DNA from: Lentisphaerae bacterium GWF2_49_21
Lineage (GTDB): Bacteria; Verrucomicrobiota; Lentisphaeria; Victivallales; GWF2-50-93
Direction of reading: 5' to 3'
Assembly (NCBI GenBank): GCA_001804805.1
Contig: MHBH01000033.1
Location: forward strand, 1 to 62,881
DNA length: 62,881 nucleotides
Shown: one piece after another, positions 790 through 54,322 of the stretch
How positions within the stretch are numbered: the first letter of the stretch is position 1
How the letters are laid out: the number at the start of each line of letters is the position of its first letter
The notes under the pieces: model-generated
Databases searched by the model: none
What the model was told of the DNA's origin: nothing
The model's input: only the letters and a program-made list of their open reading frames with translations
Position numbers and translations under genes: made by a program

Positions 790-966
790 AATCCTGAAGG
801 GATTGAATAATACAGCCTGTGGTTTCAACCACAGGAAATATATGAAAAAATGATGCCTCCTGCAGGGACGGAATATATTTCGCCCCTGCAGGGCGAATTA
901 AATTTATGGATTCGATCCCTATGGTTGAAACCATAGGCTTTATTACCTAACGCATTCCATGCGTAA
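790..966 (+). repeat. Multi-hairpin repeat element, copy 1
   Basis: This 177-bp copy carries a series of inverted repeats. The first is AATCC...GGATT, then CCTGTGGTTTCAACCACAGG, then a stem built on GGGACGGA/CCCCTGCAGG, then CCTATGGTTGAAACCATAGG, and last GCATTCCATGC. The same order and near-identical sequence recur at 48484-48661 (opposite orientation) and 54058-54235 (same orientation). It contains no ORF of its own. It resembles transposase-dependent REP/MITE-type repeats, but that is inference since no transposase is in the window. Confidence 0.85.
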
Positions 967-27336: not shown

Positions 27337-29448
27337 TTGACAAATGATTGGATATTAATGGTCCTTACAGCAGCCCATGACGGCAGATCAAAGAATTTAA
27401 GCTTTACCGCCTTTGAAATTGGCCTGATATCATTTTTAATCCTATTCCAGGAGCTGGCACTAATACGATGGCTGCCCGGCCAGGTACGAGTCCTTGCCTA
27501 TTTCCCAAATCTGATCCTGCTGGGATCCTTTCTTGGATTGGGATTGGGCTGCCTGCGTGCCGAGAGGCGGAGCCTCCTATGGATGTGGCCGGTATCCCTT
27601 TTAATATTGATAGCGGCAGCAGGCGCCATGAGCCGGATTGTCTTTACTGCGAGCACGCCGTCTGAGCATTTGTGGCTGCTCTACTATGATTTGCCGAAGG
27701 AGGCGCCCGTATTCAACTCCGTCTATTTCCCGATCATTGCAGGATTCATCCTTTGCGCTTTGACATTTATCCCTCTTGGCCAGGTCCTTGCCAATCGCCT
27801 TAACATTTTTCAAAAACAATCTTCGGCATTATGGGGCTACTTCTGGGATCTGTCCGGATCGCTTCTGGGAGTAGTTGCGTTTTCATTCACTAATCTGCTG
27901 AATTCATTTCCATGGACATGGTTTGGAATTATTGTTGTTTTGGGATTTACATATTTCATCTGGCAGAAATGGGGCCGCATACTCTATCTGCTTATGTCGG
28001 CCGGCCTGATCGTCATGGTTGTGAAAACCGAGCGCGCGATGGTCTACAGCCCCTACTATGCCATATCGCTCCGTGAATCGACGGATCAATCATTTTTCAT
28101 TGTGCTGGCAAATGGATCATTCCATCAGGTGCCGACAAAACTGGACAGGGTGGACACTCTTAACTTCAAATGGCAGAATGATGCCCGGGAAGGTTATCAT
28201 TTCCCTTATCGTCTCTTAAAGCATCCGCCGAGGAGGGCGCTCGTGCTGGGTGCAGGCACAGGCAACGATGTCGCCGTCCTGCTGGACGAAGGCGCAGAGG
28301 AGATAGATGCCGTTGAAATTGATCCGGTAATAATAAAGCTAGGACAGGATCATCCCGGCCATCCTTATTCATCTCCCAGAGTCAATGTAATCAATACCGA
28401 TGCCAGGCAATACTTGAACAATACCGGGAAAAAGTATGACCTGATTGTTTTCGGTACTCTGGACTCCATGACAAAGCTTTCCGCGCTTTCAAATGTAAGG
28501 CTGGATAATTTTGTCTACTCGACAGACTGCCTGCGGGCGGCGAAATCCCACCTTACATCTGACGGAGGAATGATCCTGTATTTCATGGCATCTTCTGATT
28601 ATATCCACACCCGGCTGATCGGCATGCTGGCGCATACATTCGAAAAGCTTCCGCTCGTGCAGGAAAAATATTCATCCCTTTTTAACAAGATATATATGGC
28701 CGGCCCCGCCTTTTCCCATATAGTTCCCCAGGATCAGGAAAAAGAGGCCCTGTATTTTGCTGAAACACTGCCCAAGCTTGAGCTTCCCAATGACGACTGG
28801 CCCTACCTTTATCTCCGCGATCGGGGCGTGAGCGGATTCTATCTCATCCTGATTTCAGTTTTCCTTCTGCTAGGAGTCGTCAGCGTGTTTTTTGTTTCTC
28901 CGGAAATGAAACATAGCTTCAAAAATATAAGGACCATTGACACGGAAATGTTCTTGTTTGGACTGGCCTTTCTTCTACTGGAAACAAAACTGGTGGTGGC
29001 AATGACCCTGGTCTGGGGAGCTACATGGCTTACAAGTGCAGTTGTGTTCGCATCGGTCCTTGCCATGATTCTGGTTTCCACACTTCTCACGCAAGTCAAG
29101 CCTATGAGCTGGAGGTTTGCAATGGGAGGTCTGATTGTCACTCTTGCGGCCACTTACTTTATCCCTACGCAGGCGTTGCTGGTTGATAACTTTGTCTTGA
29201 GGCTGATCGCCTCGGTGGGTTATATTGGCACGCCTCTGTTTTTTGCGGCAGCCTGTTTTGCCCTATGCTTTAAAAAACGCTCTTCTCCCAACCTGGCCTT
29301 GGGATGGAATCTTCTGGGAGCTGTCACCGGCGGGCTTATGGAATTTCTTTCCATGGCCATCGGATTGAAAGCATTGTCGCTGGTTGCGCTTGTCTCCTAT
29401 CTCCTAGTCATGCTGATCAATATCAGAAAGACAAGTGAAAAGGCTTAA
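27337..29448 (+). CDS. Spermidine-synthase-like integral membrane protein
   Basis: 703 residues. About seven hydrophobic segments occur in residues 25-235, then a soluble SAM-dependent methyltransferase/spermidine synthase-like domain. This has ALVLGAGTGNDVAVLL, the acidic IDAVEIDPVI and KYDLIVFGTLD. It ends with another set of membrane segments (about 500-700). Proteins of this layout are common and uncharacterised; aminopropyl or methyl transfer to a lipid or small molecule is a guess from the fold. ATG 27337 and ATG 27358 are both in frame, with no strong ribosome-binding site. It converges with pyrG. Confidence 0.8.
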   Translation: MTNDWILMVLTAAHDGRSKNLSFTAFEIGLISFLILFQELALIRWLPGQVRVLAYFPNLILLGSFLGLGLGCLRAERRSLLWMWPVSLLILIAAAGAMSRIVFTASTPSEHLWLLYYDLPKEAPVFNSVYFPIIAGFILCALTFIPLGQVLANRLNIFQKQSSALWGYFWDLSGSLLGVVAFSFTNLLNSFPWTWFGIIVVLGFTYFIWQKWGRILYLLMSAGLIVMVVKTERAMVYSPYYAISLRESTDQSFFIVLANGSFHQVPTKLDRVDTLNFKWQNDAREGYHFPYRLLKHPPRRALVLGAGTGNDVAVLLDEGAEEIDAVEIDPVIIKLGQDHPGHPYSSPRVNVINTDARQYLNNTGKKYDLIVFGTLDSMTKLSALSNVRLDNFVYSTDCLRAAKSHLTSDGGMILYFMASSDYIHTRLIGMLAHTFEKLPLVQEKYSSLFNKIYMAGPAFSHIVPQDQEKEALYFAETLPKLELPNDDWPYLYLRDRGVSGFYLILISVFLLLGVVSVFFVSPEMKHSFKNIRTIDTEMFLFGLAFLLLETKLVVAMTLVWGATWLTSAVVFASVLAMILVSTLLTQVKPMSWRFAMGGLIVTLAATYFIPTQALLVDNFVLRLIASVGYIGTPLFFAAACFALCFKKRSSPNLALGWNLLGAVTGGLMEFLSMAIGLKALSLVALVSYLLVMLINIRKTSEKA

Positions 29449-32705: not shown

Positions 32706-35687
32706 TTACCACAGGACGGGAATAAAAAACAGGTTCAGTTTGAAAGATTCCTGTGATTTCTCGTAGCTGAACAGCCTCCAGCAGAATGAAAAACGGTTCC
32801 TTTTGGGATTTCCCGTATAGGAGATGAAGGGGAAAATGTCGACGTTGAACTCGTCCCCCAGTTTTTCGCTATGATAGAATTTCCAGAGGATTCTGGTTAT
32901 GGAAGCTTCCTTTTCGGTTTCAGTCTTCTCCTGGGCCGAATGGTAATACAGGTACCACATCGCCTGTGAGTCCACGGTCTTCAGCTCAGTGTCCTCCTGC
33001 CTGGTGAAGAGCCAGAGGAATGAGCTGTCGTTGACTTTGGATTTTGTCCTGTTCCTGAAATAGAATGGAATAACGGAGAAGTCGGAAATTTCCTTCTCCT
33101 TGTTCTCTGAAAGCAGGATGTTTGGCAGTATGAAGCTGTTCTTTCTGGCGGTTGTAATCTCCTTGTAGCCGAGGTTGCCGTCGGATCTGTCGGAAGAATT
33201 GAAGATGTCTTTACCGTCGATTTCCGGTTTCACGGCGATGTAATCCCAGTCTTCCTTCCAGTAGCTGAAATAGAAGGGGAGCAGATACCAGGCATCATGG
33301 TTCGAATCGTTGATTTTCCTGCGGGTTCTGCCGAAGAACGTATAGTTTGTGTGCGAATATTCCGAGTCGGAGTAGTCGTAGTAGAACGGCAGATACCTGC
33401 TGTATTCCACCTTATCCCTGCCCTGGCCGCTGATGCCTCTGGCCACGAGGGGGAACATGATGTCCAGATCGTATCCGTTCTTGTCCTGGTAATAAAAAAA
33501 GAACGGGAGGACGTGTCCCTGTATGGAGCTTATTCCCTCCTCCGGATTGTTCATGAATCTCAGCTTTGACATGGCGAGAAGAAAATTGTAGTCGGTATGA
33601 TCCTCTGACGACTCCTTTGTCAGGAGCGGTGATGCATAATAGCTTTTGCCGTCGTTCCACCATCCGAAAAGAGGAGTGAAGAACTTCTGGAAGTTGTTTT
33701 TAGCATAGAACAGGGGGGTGAACATGTAGTCTGTGCCCGCCTTTTTGTCGGTACCGCTAAAATAGACGGGGAAGAACATGGAGAAAGCCGACTGCTCGTT
33801 CTCCTGGCACCATCCAAGAGGCCAGAGATAATAGAACTGGAATTCTTTTTTATCCTTGTCGTCGGAATAGTAGAATAACGGGAAAGAGAAATACTTGTTT
33901 TTTGACGGCTGGAAGCAACAGAGAGGTCCGAATATGATGTATGAGTTACGCCCCTTGCCCTCCAGGTCCTTTTTCATCATAAATAATGGAGGAGGCATAA
34001 TGTAAAGGAATTTGTCATCATAGCCGTAAAGCAGCGAGTAGAAGGAGAAAGCATCTTTCTTGTAAAGCGGGAATATGTAGCTGGATCTGTTGGCGGAGTT
34101 GAATTTGGAAAAAGGCCACAGGAAATGAGAGGTGGAGGTTTCGACTGTCTCGCCGGTCTTTTCGTCCTTCTTTGACACGATGTTGTCCCTTATGTAGAAG
34201 GGCGGCATCACATACATCATGGTGTCAGTATGCCCGAAGGGAAGTGTGTAAAGTGATTTTTCGCTGCTTGCGTAGAATGGGAACACGTAGCTGATCTTAT
34301 CGCGCGTGTCGAACATTGAAAACGGCCACATGTACGAGTATCTGGCGCCTTCCTCCATCTGCCCGGTCTTTTCGTTCATCCCGGGGTCAAGGTTCTTCTT
34401 TATGAAAAAAGGTGGAAGCGCGTATTCCATCTCCTGGTTGTAGCCGAAGAGAAGCGAATAGAAATAATCCTTTCCTGTGGAGTAGGCCGGGAACACGTAG
34501 CTCCGCTCGTTTAGGGAATCGAATCTGGAGAACGGAGGCAGGAAATAGCGCACAGTGCCATCTTTTATGGGATCATCCCTTCCATCGGAATAAACCTTCT
34601 TCTGGAAGAAAAGTGGAGGCATTATGTACATCGACTTCTCATTGTATCCGAACAGGAGGGAATATAGCGAAGTCGGAGACTTGGAGTATATCGGGAACAC
34701 GTAGCTAGAGTTGTCGGTCGTCCTGAACCTTGAAAAAGGCCAGAGATAATAATTGTCCGTACCGATGACGGTATCAGCAGCGTCTTTTTCCTTGGAGAAA
34801 ATATTTTTCTGCGCGAAGAGGGGAGGCATTATATACATTCCCTTCTTGCTGTATGAAAAAGGAATCGAGAGGAAGGAATCCTTTTCCTTGCCGTAGATCG
34901 GGAATATGTAGCTCTCTCCGGTAGCGGTGTTGAATTCCGAAAACATCGCAAGGACATTGAGCCTTATTCCGTCCTTTTCATATTTCCATCCTGTCAGGAG
35001 TGCTGGGAGGACGACAGAGTCCTTGTTCCAGCATATGAGAGGAGAGATGAATTCGCTTCCATCCGAATAATAGACAGGTATGAAATAGCTGGATTTCTCC
35101 TTGGAGTTGTAGCCTCCCATATAGGCCAGATATTTGTATGAGCCGTTGAAATTGTCCACGGAAACCATGGGCCTGAAAGCCCATCCAACGTCGTTGACCT
35201 CGCCGATCGGCCACATTATCCCGTAGAAAAGGAGGTTCTTGTAGAAAAGAGGCCAGATGTTGATCCTGTCAGGCTCGAGCCTGTTCAGATCGTCGTTGAG
35301 AGTAGCCCTCTTGATCCCTGAAGACTCCGGATCGTCCCATTTGACCATTTTACCGGTTGACGACACCCCATACACGACTTCCCCGGTATAGAACGGAGTT
35401 GATTTCATCATAGGCGTGGAACAGCCGCATAGCAAAGCAGAACATGTGATGAAGAACAGCAATATGATTGAAGCAATTGCAAAACAGCTCCTTTTGCAAT
35501 GGTTATTATAGTTGGAGTTCACAGCTTTAGCGTGCGTAACCTGTTGAATGCCAAGACACGCTGAAGCTGTGAACTCCAACTGGTATATTACCGAAAGAAC
35601 CGTTTTATGTATTTGTGCCATCGTCTCAATTATATGAATCTTCTTCATTGTATTTGCCCAATATTTTACAACTTCTTCGCCACGCAT
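32706..35687 (-). CDS. Large lipoprotein with five ~68-residue tandem repeats
   Basis: 993 residues as opened at 35687. A hydrophobic run (about 68-88) ends in the lipobox-like LLCGC with Cys89, so the mature protein is probably a surface or periplasmic lipoprotein of about 900 residues. Residues 259-597 hold five repeats of about 66-69 residues. Each has S-Y-V/I-F-P-x-Y, then Y-S-L-L-F-G-Y, M-Y-I-M-P-P-x-F, and a W-P-F-S-x-F-like end. Further degenerate copies follow to the C-terminus. Tyr, Phe and Trp are abundant and the pattern suggests repeated beta strands. Residues 36-59 are translated repeat element (35511-35580), so the true start may lie after it; AAAAGGAGC at 35487-35495 has no ATG after it. 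Family not recognised. Confidence 0.75.
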   Translation of the reverse strand: MRGEEVVKYWANTMKKIHIIETMAQIHKTVLSVIYQLEFTASACLGIQQVTHAKAVNSNYNNHCKRSCFAIASIILLFFITCSALLCGCSTPMMKSTPFYTGEVVYGVSSTGKMVKWDDPESSGIKRATLNDDLNRLEPDRINIWPLFYKNLLFYGIMWPIGEVNDVGWAFRPMVSVDNFNGSYKYLAYMGGYNSKEKSSYFIPVYYSDGSEFISPLICWNKDSVVLPALLTGWKYEKDGIRLNVLAMFSEFNTATGESYIFPIYGKEKDSFLSIPFSYSKKGMYIMPPLFAQKNIFSKEKDAADTVIGTDNYYLWPFSRFRTTDNSSYVFPIYSKSPTSLYSLLFGYNEKSMYIMPPLFFQKKVYSDGRDDPIKDGTVRYFLPPFSRFDSLNERSYVFPAYSTGKDYFYSLLFGYNQEMEYALPPFFIKKNLDPGMNEKTGQMEEGARYSYMWPFSMFDTRDKISYVFPFYASSEKSLYTLPFGHTDTMMYVMPPFYIRDNIVSKKDEKTGETVETSTSHFLWPFSKFNSANRSSYIFPLYKKDAFSFYSLLYGYDDKFLYIMPPPLFMMKKDLEGKGRNSYIIFGPLCCFQPSKNKYFSFPLFYYSDDKDKKEFQFYYLWPLGWCQENEQSAFSMFFPVYFSGTDKKAGTDYMFTPLFYAKNNFQKFFTPLFGWWNDGKSYYASPLLTKESSEDHTDYNFLLAMSKLRFMNNPEEGISSIQGHVLPFFFYYQDKNGYDLDIMFPLVARGISGQGRDKVEYSRYLPFYYDYSDSEYSHTNYTFFGRTRRKINDSNHDAWYLLPFYFSYWKEDWDYIAVKPEIDGKDIFNSSDRSDGNLGYKEITTARKNSFILPNILLSENKEKEISDFSVIPFYFRNRTKSKVNDSSFLWLFTRQEDTELKTVDSQAMWYLYYHSAQEKTETEKEASITRILWKFYHSEKLGDEFNVDIFPFISYTGNPKRNRFSFCWRLFSYEKSQESFKLNLFFIPVLW
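35511..35580. repeat. GTTGGAGTTCACAGCTT hairpin repeat inside an ORF
   Basis: The 24-base arms, GTTGGAGTTCACAGCTT-TAGCGTG and its complement, pair with one mismatch around a 22-base loop. Relatives with the same GTTGGAG...CTCCAAC ends lie at 47195-47302, 59055-59140 and in part at 53990-54016. It sits inside the N-terminal reading frame of the lipoprotein gene. Confidence 0.85.
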
Positions 35688-36637
35688 ACAAACCGGCCCT
35701 TGTTTTTGGAATCGAGATAGACGCGGTAAATTATTTGTCCTGTCTCCTTAATCCTATCAACCAACTCCTTCAGTTTGTCCTCAGGACAGTCCTGGTCGGC
35801 GAAAATGAAGATACGGCAATCGCCATATTCCGCCTGGGATTTCCTGATGATTGACATAAGGAGGCCTTCTGTTAACGCGCTACGGCATATGAATAGCGTG
35901 TTTTCTTTTGTCATGTCAACTTGAATGTCTCTCGGATCCGTTTCTGTCAAGACCTCACCGTCGTCGCAGTGAGGAAGATTGATCTTCATCTTTATCAGTG
36001 TGTCAATGTGCGGGATAAGGATGTTCTCTTTAAAATCATAGCCGAAGATCCCGTATCCGTCTTCAATCTTGTCTGAACCTTTCCTTGCAAAGACCATCTG
36101 CGTAATCTGCTTCCATTCTCCTTTGAAAAGGCAGCGGGCCTTGAAACCATAGCTTGTGGATACATTGAAGCTGCCTGAGAACATGCCTCCCTTTTCCTCC
36201 CATTTTATGTCTTTGACATCCCTCATGCTCAGGAAGCAATCATTCCTCTCTATAAAAGAATACATGTCATCGTAGCTGAAATCGGTGCAAATGTCATAGC
36301 CCAGTGGAATCCCCTTAATTTGATTTGGAACAGCGGAAAACAAATAAGCAGAAAGGGATTTTTCATCAAAAGACAGAGCTTGGTTTAGCTTATACAAAGG
36401 AGGGGAGAACAGCTCGTTTTTCATCTTTAGCAGTTCAATAATACTCAAATGTTGCCATGCCTTGAGCTTGTCAAGGAACGAACTTGGATACCGGATTTGA
36501 CGAAATTCTATGCTCTTGCTGATGATATATGACTTGCTGGTGAAGTAAGCATAGGCGATGATTGCAATGGCAAATAGCAGCAGATATAATAGGAGCATCA
36601 ACCATTGTCGGAGTGAGAATTTTCCGGTTTTGCCCAT
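35666..36637 (-). CDS. Membrane-anchored protein of unknown function
   Basis: 323 residues from ATG 36637 (GGGAGAAC upstream; the earlier ATG at 36655 has none). A membrane segment (about 13-33, LMLLLYLLLFAIAIIAYAYF) is followed by a large soluble domain outside the membrane. That domain ends with a block (LFICRSALTEGLLMSIIRKSQ, IFIFADQDCPEDKLKELV) that looks like a Rossmann-type or thioredoxin-like half. I recognise no family. It overlaps the lipoprotein frame by 22 bases and follows murC by 49 bases on the same strand, so murC, this gene and the lipoprotein probably form an operon. Confidence 0.65.
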   Translation of the reverse strand: MGKTGKFSLRQWLMLLLYLLLFAIAIIAYAYFTSKSYIISKSIEFRQIRYPSSFLDKLKAWQHLSIIELLKMKNELFSPPLYKLNQALSFDEKSLSAYLFSAVPNQIKGIPLGYDICTDFSYDDMYSFIERNDCFLSMRDVKDIKWEEKGGMFSGSFNVSTSYGFKARCLFKGEWKQITQMVFARKGSDKIEDGYGIFGYDFKENILIPHIDTLIKMKINLPHCDDGEVLTETDPRDIQVDMTKENTLFICRSALTEGLLMSIIRKSQAEYGDCRIFIFADQDCPEDKLKELVDRIKETGQIIYRVYLDSKNKGRFVCVAKKL

Positions 36638-36686
36638 AGTTCTCCCAAATTCCAAAATCCTGTTATCCTGTCAAAAAATCTTCGTC

Positions 36687-38472: not shown

Positions 38473-39750
38473 CTATTTGCGTTTGACTTCTGCAAAGACC
38501 TTGAGCAGTTCTTTCCTGATGTTTTCCGCTTCAGGTGAATTTGCGGCAACAGGATTCTTTTCAAGGGGATCCTTTTCGAGGTCGTAGAGGGAGCCGTCGT
38601 CGTAGAGCTTCCACTTTTTGTTCCAGGCAGCCTCCCTGGTCTTTTCCTTCTTCCTGCCGCTTTCCCAGTAGTGCAGGAAAGTCCATTCGCGCGGATTGCC
38701 TTTCTCGCCCTTGATCTGCGGAAGGAAGGATTTGCCGTCGATGATCCTGTCGGCAGGGATCTTTGCGCCTGCCGCTTCAGCCATGGTGGGGAGGAAATCA
38801 GAGAAATCAACGATGTCGGAGCACACGGTAGGCTTTTTTATCTCCTTCGGCCAGCTTGCAACCAGGGGGACATGGGTGCCGGCATCCGTCATGGTGGCTT
38901 TTCCGCCTTGCACTTTCCCTTTTTCAGTATTGGTTGTGATCACCTTGCCGGTGCCGTTGTCTCCTGTGAAAAGGACAAGGGTGTTGTCCCTGATACCGAG
39001 TTCGTCGAGTTTTTTCACGAGGTTTCCGACAAGCTTGTCAGCGTATGACACCATGTCGGAAAAATATTCCGGGGAATCATTTTTGTCGCTTCTCTCACCC
39101 TTGGCACTTTCAGGAGTGGGACAGAACGGATTATGAGTAAGGCACATCGGATAATATACGAGGAAAGGTTTATCCTTGTTCTCCTCCATAAATTTCAGGG
39201 CGAAATCGGAATTCACGTCCGGCCCGTATTTGTCGGCGATGTCTTCTAAGACTTTACCGTTGCACACAATCCTGGACTTCCAGTAGCGTGGGCCAAGCCC
39301 ATTGATCTGCCAGAGGCAATACTCGTCGAAACCGCACTTCTTTGGCCCTTCGAGATCGTCCCCGAGCTGCCATTTTCCAGTGATGCATGTCGAATAGCCG
39401 GCATCCTTGAGGATGTTGGCGAAGGTGATCTCGTTCGGCGGCATGACTCCGAAACCCACATAGTTCCTGTGGGTATAGCGGCCTGTCATGAGTTCGACAC
39501 GTGACGGCGTGCACAGAGGAGTTGAATAGCAGTAGTCGAACTTTACTCCCTTTGCAGCAAGCGCGTCTATATTTGGGGTCTTGTAGTCCTTGCATCCGTA
39601 GCATCCGAAGCATTCATAGCCGATGTCGTCCAAGAGGATCATGACGATGTTTGGCTTTGATGCACTGCCTTCCGCAGCGCGGAGCAGGCCTGTCAAGTAT
39701 AATCCCGCCATTCCTGCGCCCGATATCTTCAGGAAATCTCTTCTGTCCAT
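38473..39750 (-). CDS. Arylsulfatase family S1, Cys-type (sulfatase 1 of 4)
   Basis: 425 residues. The N-terminus MDRRDFLKISGAGMAGLYL is a Tat-like signal, so the enzyme is exported. KPNIVMILLDDIGYECFGCYG is the metal-binding start. The active-site CTPSR is at residues 80-84 (CTPSRVELMTGRYTHR); Cys80 should become formylglycine. It hydrolyses sulfate esters; carbohydrate specificity is not readable. It is the last of four sulfatases on this strand and probably co-transcribed with the next upstream one (26-base gap). Confidence 0.92.
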   Translation of the reverse strand: MDRRDFLKISGAGMAGLYLTGLLRAAEGSASKPNIVMILLDDIGYECFGCYGCKDYKTPNIDALAAKGVKFDYCYSTPLCTPSRVELMTGRYTHRNYVGFGVMPPNEITFANILKDAGYSTCITGKWQLGDDLEGPKKCGFDEYCLWQINGLGPRYWKSRIVCNGKVLEDIADKYGPDVNSDFALKFMEENKDKPFLVYYPMCLTHNPFCPTPESAKGERSDKNDSPEYFSDMVSYADKLVGNLVKKLDELGIRDNTLVLFTGDNGTGKVITTNTEKGKVQGGKATMTDAGTHVPLVASWPKEIKKPTVCSDIVDFSDFLPTMAEAAGAKIPADRIIDGKSFLPQIKGEKGNPREWTFLHYWESGRKKEKTREAAWNKKWKLYDDGSLYDLEKDPLEKNPVAANSPEAENIRKELLKVFAEVKRK

Positions 39751-39776
39751 TGTGCCTCCTTGATCTTTAGGTTTCC

Positions 39777-41249
39777 TTAATGCCTTACATCCACATGGAA
39801 ATGTTCCGTATGGTAACCGGGCCAGGGATTGCTGCGGCGTTCCTTCTCGGTGTCGTTTTTGACAGGATGGGAATCGAGATCACCGTTCTTCAGGAAAAGA
39901 CCGCCACGTTCCTTCTGGCGGCGAATTATCTCGTCGCGGAGACGTTTCTTAATTGTCGAATGTTTCTTTGATGATGCAAGGTTTTTCAGTTCCTTCGGAT
40001 CGTTCTTCAGGTCGAAGAGCTGTTCCGTGCCGCCTTCCGGATACCACATGTACTTGAATTCGCCGTCGGTGATTCCGAGATATGCGACATTCGGATTATC
40101 TCCCAATATGTTTCCAAGGGTTCCGTCAATATACTTTCTCGGGTTCTTGATTTTTCCGTCGAGGAGGTCGATGAGATTCTCGCCGTCGCAGTCGGCGGGC
40201 GCCTTCCCGCCTGCGGCCGCGAGGAACGTGGGCAGAATGTCGGCGTGAGTCGCGAGGTGCTCTACTCGCTCTCCATATCTGCGTTTGTCCCAGGACTTTG
40301 GCAGGCGCAGAATGAACGGGATGCGGGCCGACGGCTCATGGAAGAACTGCTTGCAGCCGGTATGGTGGTCCCCGAGGAATTCGCCATGATCGGACGTGAA
40401 GATGAAAAGCGTCTCATTGAACATGTTGAAGTCCTGTAGCGCTCCGAACACGCGGCCGATATTGTAGTCGATCTGGGTGATGAGCCCGTAATAGGCGGCG
40501 CGGGCCTCGCGGATCACTTCCGGCGGGACAAGATCGTCGGACCAGCATTCACGGTGACGCTTCATTGGAGCAGGAACATCATTTTCGCTCCAGTCGCTGA
40601 TTACCGGCTCCGGAATCGGACAGTTGCGGTACATGGAATAATACGGCTCAGGCGGATCAAGAGGAGGATGAGGCTTCGAGAATGAGCACCAGAGGAAGAA
40701 GGGGACGTTCGGATCGCGCCTGTCACGGATGTATGAAACGCATTGGTTGGCTGTCCAGTTCGTGAGGGTCATCGATTCCGGGACTGTCGCCATCCCCGGA
40801 TAGAGCTCGTTCTGCCCGAGTCCGTGCTGCATCGGTTTCTGTGGAAATCCGTTCTTGTCCATTTCGATGTAGTAGTCTGCCGGGAGGATCATTTCATCAA
40901 AGCCATGACGGGTACGTTCCGGACCAAAATGCATCTTGCCGATTGCGGCGGTCTGGTATCCACATTCCCTCAGACAGGAGGGGAGGGTCCCTTCGCGTCT
41001 GATAGCTTTAGAGGTCTCCTGGTTGCCGAGTATGCGGTGCTTCCAGGGGAACTTGCCCGTGATTATGCTTGCGCGTGCGGCTACGCAGATCGGACTGCAC
41101 GTGTAGGCGCGGTCGAAGGTGATGCCGTCCCGCATCAGGTGGTTCATGTGCGGTGTGCGCATGAACGGAGGCGCATACGGTGGCAGAGTGTCATACCTCT
41201 GCTGGTCGGTCGTGATGAGAATGATGTTCGGCTGTTTGTTTGCTGACAT
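39777..41249 (-). CDS. Sulfatase with a CVAAR active site (sulfatase 2 of 4)
   Basis: 490 residues from ATG 41249 (GAGGAGGATTCAATC upstream; the longer frame to 41348 is repeat-derived). KQPNIILITTDQQRYD is the metal-site start. The active-site CVAAR is at residues 55-59. The Pro of C-x-P-x-R is replaced by Ala, the C-x-A-x-R variant accepted by some maturation enzymes. It has no obvious signal peptide, so it may be cytoplasmic. The remaining sulfatase blocks (TSDHGEFLGDH) are intact. Confidence 0.9.
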   Translation of the reverse strand: MSANKQPNIILITTDQQRYDTLPPYAPPFMRTPHMNHLMRDGITFDRAYTCSPICVAARASIITGKFPWKHRILGNQETSKAIRREGTLPSCLRECGYQTAAIGKMHFGPERTRHGFDEMILPADYYIEMDKNGFPQKPMQHGLGQNELYPGMATVPESMTLTNWTANQCVSYIRDRRDPNVPFFLWCSFSKPHPPLDPPEPYYSMYRNCPIPEPVISDWSENDVPAPMKRHRECWSDDLVPPEVIREARAAYYGLITQIDYNIGRVFGALQDFNMFNETLFIFTSDHGEFLGDHHTGCKQFFHEPSARIPFILRLPKSWDKRRYGERVEHLATHADILPTFLAAAGGKAPADCDGENLIDLLDGKIKNPRKYIDGTLGNILGDNPNVAYLGITDGEFKYMWYPEGGTEQLFDLKNDPKELKNLASSKKHSTIKKRLRDEIIRRQKERGGLFLKNGDLDSHPVKNDTEKERRSNPWPGYHTEHFHVDVRH

Positions 41250-41273
41250 GATTGAATCCTCCTCTAAAAGTAT

Positions 41274-41340
41274 GTCGGGTTTTAACCCGACGATTAATTG
41301 GCGGTTTAACCACAGCCATTCGGCATGGCAAGAAACCGCC
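41274..41340. repeat. Palindromes GTCGGGTTTTAACCCGAC and GGCGGTTT...AAACCGCC
   Basis: A perfect 18-bp palindrome (41274-41291) and a second inverted pair (41300-41340) lie between sulfatase genes 2 and 3. A relative of the first is at 42838-42932. No gene is apparent in 41250-41468. Confidence 0.75.
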
Positions 41341-41468
41341 TTATACATAAGAAAAGAACAGCTCTTGCGAGCTTAACTACTAACGAATCTCAATTGTATT
41401 TGTAATAAGTTTGTAGTCAATGCCGCAAGGCATGTTCTTGCCTTGTGATTGCGACTTGCTATTACTTC

Positions 41469-42815
41469 TTATTTACCTTTTTTTATTACCGCCTCTGGTT
41501 CGTTTGCAATAGTCATGTATTTCTGCAACCTGTTCCGCATTTCCTCACGGACATTTGCATATGCTGGATCCACGATCAGGTTTTTCTTCTCGTGTGGATC
41601 CTTTTCCAGGTCGTAGAGGTAGTCTTCGACGTATGAATCGCTGAATCCTGCACCTCCGGGAACATTCGGTGCGCGGACGCTATACTTCCACTTATGGGTC
41701 CTCACCGACCTTCCAGTATGATCCTCGGAGATCTGGATATAAACATCATCCGGCCATGAAGATTTCTCCGATCCGTCGGCAAGCCCGTTCAATGGATTGC
41801 CTTTCATGAAGGATGGCGGTTCAATCCCTCCTGACTTGAGGAAGGTCGGCGGAATATCGATTAAGCTTACCATTTCGCTGATTCTCCCGCCGCCCTTGAA
41901 TCCAGGTCCGCAAATTATCATCGGGATATGGGTGCAGCCGTCATGGCAGGCTCTTTTGTATTCATTGTTTCTCGTCCTGAAATGGGAGCCGTGGTCGCTG
42001 GTGAAGATGATTATGGTGTTGTCGTCGATCTTCAAATCCCTGAGCTTTTTACGGACCCTTCCGAGATTCTCGTCGAGGCTGTTTATGCATCCGAGATAAT
42101 CGGGATAGTTTTTGCGCCAGTCGCCCTGCGTTCCTTCAAGATCTCCGGGCACAGGATAATCCTTGAATTTTTCCTTCGAGCACTTAGGTCCTTCATAACA
42201 TTCATGATCGTTCTGATGGTGAGGCTCTATGTATGAAAGGAAAAGGAAGAAAGGCTTTTTCAGGTCCCTGGTTTCAAGATATTCCAGCACCCAGTCGGTC
42301 TGGGCATCTGCACGGTATCTTCCTTCTGGAAAATCGCGTCTCTTGCCATCTGCATCGAACATGTGTCCGTCATAACTGTGAGAAGTGAATTCCAGAACGT
42401 CCGATGCAAGCCAGTAGTCTAAATATCCTCCGCGTCTTTCCACCGGAGTAGGTTTCTCACGGAAATCGTCCGGACCTCCGCCCTTTCCGCTCGAAGCCAG
42501 GTGCCATTTGCCGATGTAGCCTGCCTCATATCCGTTCCTGCGCATTATTTTCGCTACGGTATCATCGTTTACCGGAAGCATGATGTTGTTCGTATGGCAT
42601 CCTATTTCACTGGCGTATTTTCCGGTCTGCAGGACAGCTCTCGCGGGACCGCATACGGGCTGGCATGTGAATGCATTTTCAAAGAGCACGCCTTCCTTGG
42701 CCATCTGGTCCAGATTTGGTGTGATGTTTAACTTCTGTCCATAGCACCCGCAGGTGTCCCAGCGTTGCTGGTCCGTAAAGAAGAAGATTATGTTCGGTCG
42801 ACTTTCTTTTTTCAT
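41469..42815 (-). CDS. Sulfatase with a CGPAR active site (sulfatase 3 of 4)
   Basis: 448 residues from ATG 42815 (AAGGAGAGCCTGAC upstream). RPNIIFFFTDQQRWDTCG is the metal-site start and CGPAR is at residues 55-59. TSDHGSHF is present near residue 275 and the C-terminal LEKDPHEKKNL is typical of S1 sulfatases. No signal peptide is seen. Its substrate is a sulfated glycan, not further defined. Confidence 0.92.
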   Translation of the reverse strand: MKKESRPNIIFFFTDQQRWDTCGCYGQKLNITPNLDQMAKEGVLFENAFTCQPVCGPARAVLQTGKYASEIGCHTNNIMLPVNDDTVAKIMRRNGYEAGYIGKWHLASSGKGGGPDDFREKPTPVERRGGYLDYWLASDVLEFTSHSYDGHMFDADGKRRDFPEGRYRADAQTDWVLEYLETRDLKKPFFLFLSYIEPHHQNDHECYEGPKCSKEKFKDYPVPGDLEGTQGDWRKNYPDYLGCINSLDENLGRVRKKLRDLKIDDNTIIIFTSDHGSHFRTRNNEYKRACHDGCTHIPMIICGPGFKGGGRISEMVSLIDIPPTFLKSGGIEPPSFMKGNPLNGLADGSEKSSWPDDVYIQISEDHTGRSVRTHKWKYSVRAPNVPGGAGFSDSYVEDYLYDLEKDPHEKKNLIVDPAYANVREEMRNRLQKYMTIANEPEAVIKKGK

Positions 42816-48414: not shown

Positions 48415-48732
48415 CCCAGCATGGCACCAATGCCGTTAACTTAAGCGTAACATCTTAATAATGGAGCTGTTATATTGTTTTTCTTTACGCATGGAATGCG
48501 TTAGGTAATAAAGCCTATGGTTTCAACCATAGGTATTGGATTCCAAAATTTGTTTTGCCCTGAAGGGGCAGAGTATACTCCGTCCCTACAGGACGAATCA
48601 TTTTTCCATATATGTCCTGTGGTTGAAACCACAGGCTATATTACTCAATCCCTTCAGGATTAATATATGCATGTAACATGTGAGTCATCAGTATATTATG
48701 TCTTAAGTTAACGGCGTTGGTGCCATGCTGGG
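48415..48732 (-). mobile_element. 318-bp element with 31-bp terminal inverted repeats, copy 2
   Basis: The ends CCCAGCATGGCACCAATGCC... (48415-48445) and ...GGCGTTGGTGCCATGCTGGG (48702-48732) match at 30 of 31 positions. Inside lies the multi-hairpin core (48484-48661), in the opposite orientation to the other two copies. There is no ORF, so it is MITE-like and would need a transposase encoded elsewhere. It fills most of 48371-48860, which otherwise shows nothing. Confidence 0.85.
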
Positions 48733-53606: not shown

Positions 53607-54057
53607 GGCATGAAAATCCTCCTATTTTTAATAAAATACCATGGAACTGATGGAAAACAAACATGCAAGCATCCTTCGATTCCGCCTCCGGAAAGCATGC
53701 GATCCAGTTCCTGCATATGTGTCTGGAATTCTCTGTCTATTTCTATGCAATCTTTGGAAGGATGCGTTCGGCGGAAAAACGGTGTGTGGATTCAAGTCTG
53801 AGGTGCTACACCTGTCAAACCCCCGTTTCCAGAAAAATTTAAAGCGCAGACTGATCTGCTCATCCTGCTTAAGGCAGAACAAGCTCCAAGCTTGTCCCAT
53901 AATTTGCGGGAGATTCGCTTTCCTTATCAATAAAACATTCGAAACTGGAATGCTCAATCATTTCTTTTCTAAGTTAAGGCTCAAGAACAAGAGCACGCTA
54001 AAGCTATGAACTCCAACAAAAGAGCTTTATCTTAGCAGTATTGATATCCTGATGACG
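53607..54057. other. Gap without a recognisable gene
   Basis: Frames here are open for up to 123 codons but show no recognisable protein; those on either strand are probably chance. Part of a GTTGGAG-type repeat (53990-54016) and a small AACAAGCTCCAAGCTTGTC palindrome near 53879 are the only structures seen. Confidence 0.55.
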
Positions 54058-54322
54058 AATCCTGAAGGGATTGAGTAATATAGCCTGTGGTTTCAACCAC
54101 AGGCCATATATGGAAAATTGATTCGTCCTGTAGGGACGGAGTATGCTCTGCCCCTTCAGGGCAAAACAAATTTTGGGATTCAATACCTATGGTTGAAACC
54201 ATAGGCTTTATTACCTAACGCATTCCATGCGTAAAGATAAAACAATGCAACCCCATTATTATTAAAATGTTACGCTTGAGTTAACGGCATTCGCATGGTA
54301 CCGGGCATTGGTGCCATGCTGG
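54058..54322 (+). mobile_element. Multi-hairpin repeat element, copy 3
   Basis: The core 54058-54235 is nearly identical to copy 2 but inverted. The right end GTTAACGGC...GGCATTGGTGCCATGCTGGG (to 54322) matches one terminal repeat of copy 2, apart from a ~16-base insert. The left terminal repeat is absent. With copy 2 it brackets the 1581-residue gene. Confidence 0.8.

Follow-up and report, generated by a model that had tools for sequence, protein, structure and literature searches.

A predicted lipoprotein with proline-centred strand repeats from a Lentisphaerae bacterium belongs to a family found through the phylum Verrucomicrobiota

The stretch of Lentisphaerae bacterium GWF2_49_21 DNA analysed here (62,881 nucleotides, hereafter the window) encodes a long repeat-bearing protein. 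Judged from sequence comparison, this protein is a member of a putative lipoprotein family that occurs widely in Verrucomicrobiota, a phylum that in GTDB includes Lentisphaerota, and that is absent as a model from the libraries searched. Its lipid anchoring is well supported by the sequence, and a beta array is likely. We infer outer-membrane sorting, beta structure, an elongated shape and a structural or binding role from the sequence features described below, and tentatively propose that the protein may be an outer-membrane lipoprotein whose elongated beta-strand array serves a structural or ligand-binding function. The features of the locus are listed in Table 1.

Table 1 Features of the lipoprotein locus in the window
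Feature	Position	Strand	Remarks
Open frame of the lipoprotein gene	32706..35687	(-)	993 aa, as in the ORF list
Conserved C-terminal block	32709..32846	(-)	NVDIFPFISY...FSFCWRLFSYE...LFFIPVLW, residues 948-993; invariant S906, R910, P929
Partial repeat unit 5	33969..34088	(-)	Residues 534-573; profile match 535-573, 40.7 bits
Repeat unit 4	34089..34298	(-)	Residues 464-533; Smith-Waterman and unit profile
Repeat unit 3	34299..34508	(-)	Residues 394-463; Smith-Waterman and unit profile
Repeat unit 2	34509..34712	(-)	Residues 326-393; Smith-Waterman and unit profile
Repeat unit 1	34713..34919	(-)	Residues 257-325; Smith-Waterman and unit profile
Conserved N-terminal block	35160..35282	(-)	Around RINIWPLFYKN...MWPIGEVNDVGWAFRP; invariant P85, P99, G107, R111, P112
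Lipobox cysteine codon	35421..35423	(-)	Residue 89, LLCGC
REP-type dispersed palindrome	35510..35581	(.)	Between the ExbD-like gene and the lipoprotein gene; 25-nt arms, 96% complementary
Upstream neighbour, ExbD/TolR-like	35666..36655	(-)	329 aa; N-terminal hydrophobic segment, C-terminal domain at residues 218-306

Family definition and distribution

The window protein showed no meaningful match in Pfam, NCBIfam, PHROGs, PADLOC or PDB sequences (curated cut-offs where available). When 20 members of the family were compared with Pfam, no Pfam family was matched by more than one of them. The original prediction that the repeat matches no known family was borne out by these searches. A PDB profile search gave weak matches only (best E 1), mostly to helical proteins. 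These matches fall on a stretch where several relatives, though by eye not the window protein, have a helix-like insertion ahead of the C-terminal block. At the level of titles and abstract openings, no literature on the family was found.

Relatives of the window protein were detected as 20 ORFs (phmmer, E 1e-3) in 19 of 20 fetched regions from 18 genomes. A further profile search of the relatives is not independent, since most of these sequences went into its model. The twentieth region (L044) was detected by BLASTP. In the alignment of 20 rows (A1, numbered from ORF residue 62), the columns C28, P85, P99, G107, R111, P112, P296, P685, S906, R910 and P929 are invariant. C28 is the lipobox cysteine, and its presence in 20/20 rows upholds the earlier naming of the protein as a lipoprotein. 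The family is marked by a signal peptide with this lipobox cysteine, an N-terminal WP..WP..G..RP block, a C-terminal FPFIS..SFxWR..FIP block and variable repeats between them, all of which are found in the window protein. Between the same end blocks the open frames vary from about 400 to 1390 aa, and the family is thus of variable length. The two end blocks suffice for building a family model and for naming the genes.

The A1 profile matched 129 of 288 genomes sampled from the phylum (E 1e-3). For a family modelled by none of four libraries, this represents an annotation gap. Among 18 further regions fetched from these matches, 12 held a family ORF (with over-long called starts in L141 and L142), four held repeat-only cousins and two had no ORF-level match. 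Therefore, the number of 129 genomes overstates the strict family. The repeat-only cousins (L144, L145, L147 and L148; 432-549 aa) share the strand motif described below and match the family profile with E values of 8e-16 to 7e-24, but their N-terminus is without the GCASS lipobox block; they are likely to form a separate branch. A contig scan yielded nine loci, from Lentisphaerae/Lentisphaeria, Victivallales and Kiritimatiellota plus three Akkermansiaceae. One genome encodes two family paralogs in tandem (L040, 1318-3273 and 3490-5772), the second of which has extra near-identical repeat blocks. A mobile or phage origin was rejected, since tblastn gave no match in plasmids and phages and no relative was present in viral contigs.

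Strand motif and long repeat

Between the end blocks, family members are rich in a short strand motif, [LIVF]-[FW]-P-[LF]-[YF]. We counted 307 copies in the 20 members, whereas 100 shuffles gave 42.5 on average and at most 58, an enrichment that describes the family and is no independent test, the pattern having been picked after the sequences were viewed. The window protein contains 26 of these motifs. The commonest spacings are 13-15, 18, 23-27 and 37, and the autocorrelation of hydrophobicity has a trough at lag 8-9, a peak at 14-19 and a second peak near 37. Around the central proline, residues are hydrophobic or aromatic from -2 to +2 and polar from -10 to -6 and from +5 to +9, the last range with charged or small residues. 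AlphaFold2 models consisted mostly of strands, with confidence too low for trust both for the whole protein after the REP-type element (10 alignment rows, mean pLDDT 31.8) and for three repeats (8 alignment rows, mean pLDDT 43.8).

The window protein also contains a longer repeat of about 69 residues, in four full units (residues 257-533) and a partial fifth (534-573). Pairwise Smith-Waterman scores between units were 89-163 versus a shuffle maximum of 58 (500 shuffles per pair), and the tandem repeats that had been predicted are therefore real. A unit profile derived from the four complete copies matched residues 258-325, 326-393, 395-463 and 464-533 with 111-123 bits each. Identity between pairs of units is 16-34 residues across 37-68 columns. 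Each unit is composed of four related strands (SYVFPIYSK, LYSLLFGY, MYIMPPLF and YFLPPFSRF). A repeat search at the DNA level gave the same arrangement, with a spacing of 204-210 nt. Because the units are 53-61% identical to one another at the DNA level, their duplications are old and have been kept at the protein level. More degenerate copies had been proposed to follow; past the partial fifth unit the four-unit profile found no match, whereas the shorter strand motif does continue through the protein.

Outside the window protein, the ~69-residue unit was found in three stretches of a relative in the genome G004 (L031). Weak matches were found in two stretches each of L033 and L034, and the remaining 16 alignment rows gave no match. 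Since the unit is confined to these proteins, it represents an amplification of the shorter unit that is specific to this lineage.

The 5′ end of the gene and the REP-type element

The real lipoprotein gene is probably shorter at its 5′ end than the 993-aa open frame. Upstream of the lipobox lies an inverted repeat with arms at 35510-35534 and 35557-35581, which is predicted to form an RNA hairpin of -46 kcal/mol and has 77 blastn matches within its own genome. Y1_Tnp transposases are expected in genomes with REP/RAYT systems, and this genome has 20 Y1_Tnp matches, 18 of them above the Pfam cut-off. We class the element as REP-type on the basis of a dispersed intergenic palindrome together with Y1_Tnp (RAYT-type) transposases in the same genome. 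Because this hairpin occupies residues ~36-60 of the 993-aa translation, the first ~60 residues are probably non-coding. The alignment with the G004 ortholog starts at residue 65, immediately past the element. The start of the gene lies perhaps between 35522 and 35477. Candidates are a GTG at 35522, in frame and within the second arm of the hairpin, and an ATT at 35477 preceded by AAAGGAG; a further candidate, ATG at 35648, is located upstream of the element. Raw protein matches of the full ORF were rejected as a count of relatives, since many of the weak matches in 26 of 60 genomes were the REP-type element itself (residues ~14-97, mostly with stops).

A single arm of the palindrome (GTTGGAGTTCACAGCTTYAGCGTG) is present at 53994-54017, the full hairpin being that at 35510-35581. 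The window of 63 kb also has three matches to the Acido-Lenti-1 RNA over the Rfam gathering score, at 790-835(-), 48616-48661(+) and 54058-54103(-). About 40 nt separate the third from a REP arm, and a short palindrome, CCTGTGGTTGAAACCACAGG, occurs within it; therefore, what is modelled as the Acido-Lenti-1 "RNA" may in fact be another dispersed palindrome.

Gene neighbourhood

The gene directly upstream encodes a protein with an ExbD/TolR-like domain (PF02472, E 7e-5, 23.3 bits, under the cut-off of 25.4). Pfam has no match to the long N-terminal part of this protein. A full-length relative was found in none of 30 related genomes, and the protein is probably not a functional partner of the lipoprotein. 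The original prediction had taken the place next to murC and a membrane-anchored protein as a sign of a likely envelope role. The order of these genes was not kept in relatives: murC, the ExbD-like gene, DUF1846, pyrG, xerD and the gene for a 703-aa protein were beside the family gene in 0/20 relative regions, although for some of these, which are short or cut off by the edge of a contig, absence of the neighbours is not proven. The sole match to a neighbouring gene in these regions was a sulfatase in L034, and apart from the family itself no neighbour cluster was common to more than 3 of 23 sources. A function deduced from neighbours was therefore rejected; the predicted envelope role retains the support of the lipobox but not that of the gene order.

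In the congener G001, murC, DUF1846, pyrG and, further on, xerD occur in this order with 83-92% identity to the window genes. Its murC adjoins DUF1846: the aligned flanks are 3 nt apart, and both the ExbD-like gene and the lipoprotein gene are missing from the junction. G001 is the one congener in which this junction is assembled: the G002 contig stops at DUF1846, and the murC and DUF1846 genes of G004 are on separate contigs. In G003, an ExbD-like remnant lies downstream of murC (L131, 6245-6540; 20/57 residues identical to the N-terminus), broken by or running into a repeated sequence with 30 matches in that genome. Since G003 keeps this remnant, G001 may equally well, or more probably, have lost the gene pair than the window genome have gained it by insertion, and we did not favour insertion of the pair between murC and DUF1846. 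REP matches aside, the lipoprotein gene was not found in three genomes of the same genus, G001, G002 and G003 (77% complete). Therefore, members of the genus can probably do without the gene. The pair has a patchy occurrence among them and carries little information on function.

The 703-aa protein is a membrane protein (27337-29448(+)) with a spermidine-synthase-like domain (PF01564). In G001, two short ORFs replace its gene in the pyrG-xerD interval, which is a second patchy spot.

Possible structure and role

The protein would be cleaved by signal peptidase II and then anchored through cysteine 89. Having no Asp at +2, it would by the usual sorting rule go to the outer rather than the inner membrane, if that rule applies in this phylum. 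The remainder of the protein would be composed of short beta strands centred on proline and flanked by aromatic or aliphatic residues, each strand of about 8 residues being followed by a polar turn with a period of about 14-19 residues. The conserved N-terminal and C-terminal blocks may close the strand array, and in the window lineage a set of four strands would have been duplicated into the ~69-residue units. Such an array is probably a stiff and elongated beta structure, which might scaffold the envelope or bind a ligand via its aromatic residues, and whose length would be tuned as strands are gained and lost. Nothing that points to a ligand was found among neighbours, residue patterns typical of enzymes or known domains.

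The same strands could also form a lipid-anchored integral outer-membrane beta-barrel, with hairpins crossing the membrane, short turns on the periplasmic side and, in every unit, a longer variable loop facing outward. A strand length of about 8-9 and the alternation of short and long loops fit this reading, and the window protein (...IPVLW) is one of 9 members, out of 20, with a C-terminal F or W, a feature resembling the BamA signal. The other 11 members, however, end in other residues. The two-residue hydrophobic alternation used as the criterion for an outer-membrane barrel is absent (mean autocorrelation +0.06, +0.02 and +0.06 at lags 1, 2 and 3, scored without a known-barrel reference), both faces of the strands being hydrophobic. 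In addition, with so many strands a single barrel would greatly exceed known barrels in size. We therefore did not favour a barrel, which seems quite improbable.

Two further readings were considered. The lipoprotein may face the periplasm from the outer membrane and bridge or brace this space, possibly binding lipid or peptidoglycan, together with the ExbD/TolR-like protein in this lineage. The position of the ExbD-like gene directly upstream on the same strand and the remnant after murC in G003 are in line with such a brace, but the neighbour has no full-length relative in 30 genomes and is beside the family gene in none of the 20 relative regions, and the two genes are held apart by a strong hairpin; we consider this reading unlikely. 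Binding of glycans at the cell surface, as an adhesin or as a lipoprotein that helps the cell hold polysaccharide, is suggested by three sulfatase-like ORFs nearby upstream (38473-42815, named by eye from sequence). Aromatic-rich hairpin repeats are also a common solution for sugar binding. However, a sulfatase cluster is near the family in just 3 of 23 sources, and the aromatic residues are at strand centres, where many of them may belong to the core and not to a binding site, which makes this reading rather unlikely.

Returning to the outer-membrane lipoprotein with an elongated strand array, a bolder form of this proposal, which we regard as doubtful, is that the family constitutes a new structural class. 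Its members would be lipid-anchored arrays of proline-centred strands with two hydrophobic faces and fixed end blocks, acting phylum-wide as a length-adjustable spacer or conduit of the envelope. If the protein is an envelope scaffold, it would provide a marker of the cell surface in Lentisphaerota and Verrucomicrobia, which is poorly known, and a means of access to it.

Comparison with known systems

The palindrome at the 5′ end resembles the REP/RAYT elements in excerpts of PMC2817692 and PMC3733652, in being a dispersed intergenic hairpin (here ~72 nt) in a genome with Y1_Tnp. In the window, however, the element is no part of the function of the lipoprotein and merely distorts its apparent N-terminus. 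The window family has a lipid anchor and variable tandem repeats in common with repeat-bearing outer-membrane lipoproteins generally, but no sequence family is common to these and the window protein, whose localisation is predicted. MORN repeats and choline/cell-wall-binding hairpin repeats are short aromatic-containing strand-turn or hairpin units, arranged in tandem and in variable number, with a Gly/Trp pattern. Neither was among the single-member Pfam matches of the 20 family members. The window family is like them in its tandem short aromatic units, their variable number and the elongated arrays expected from them; the Gly/Trp pattern is theirs, whereas a mid-strand proline distinguishes the window family.
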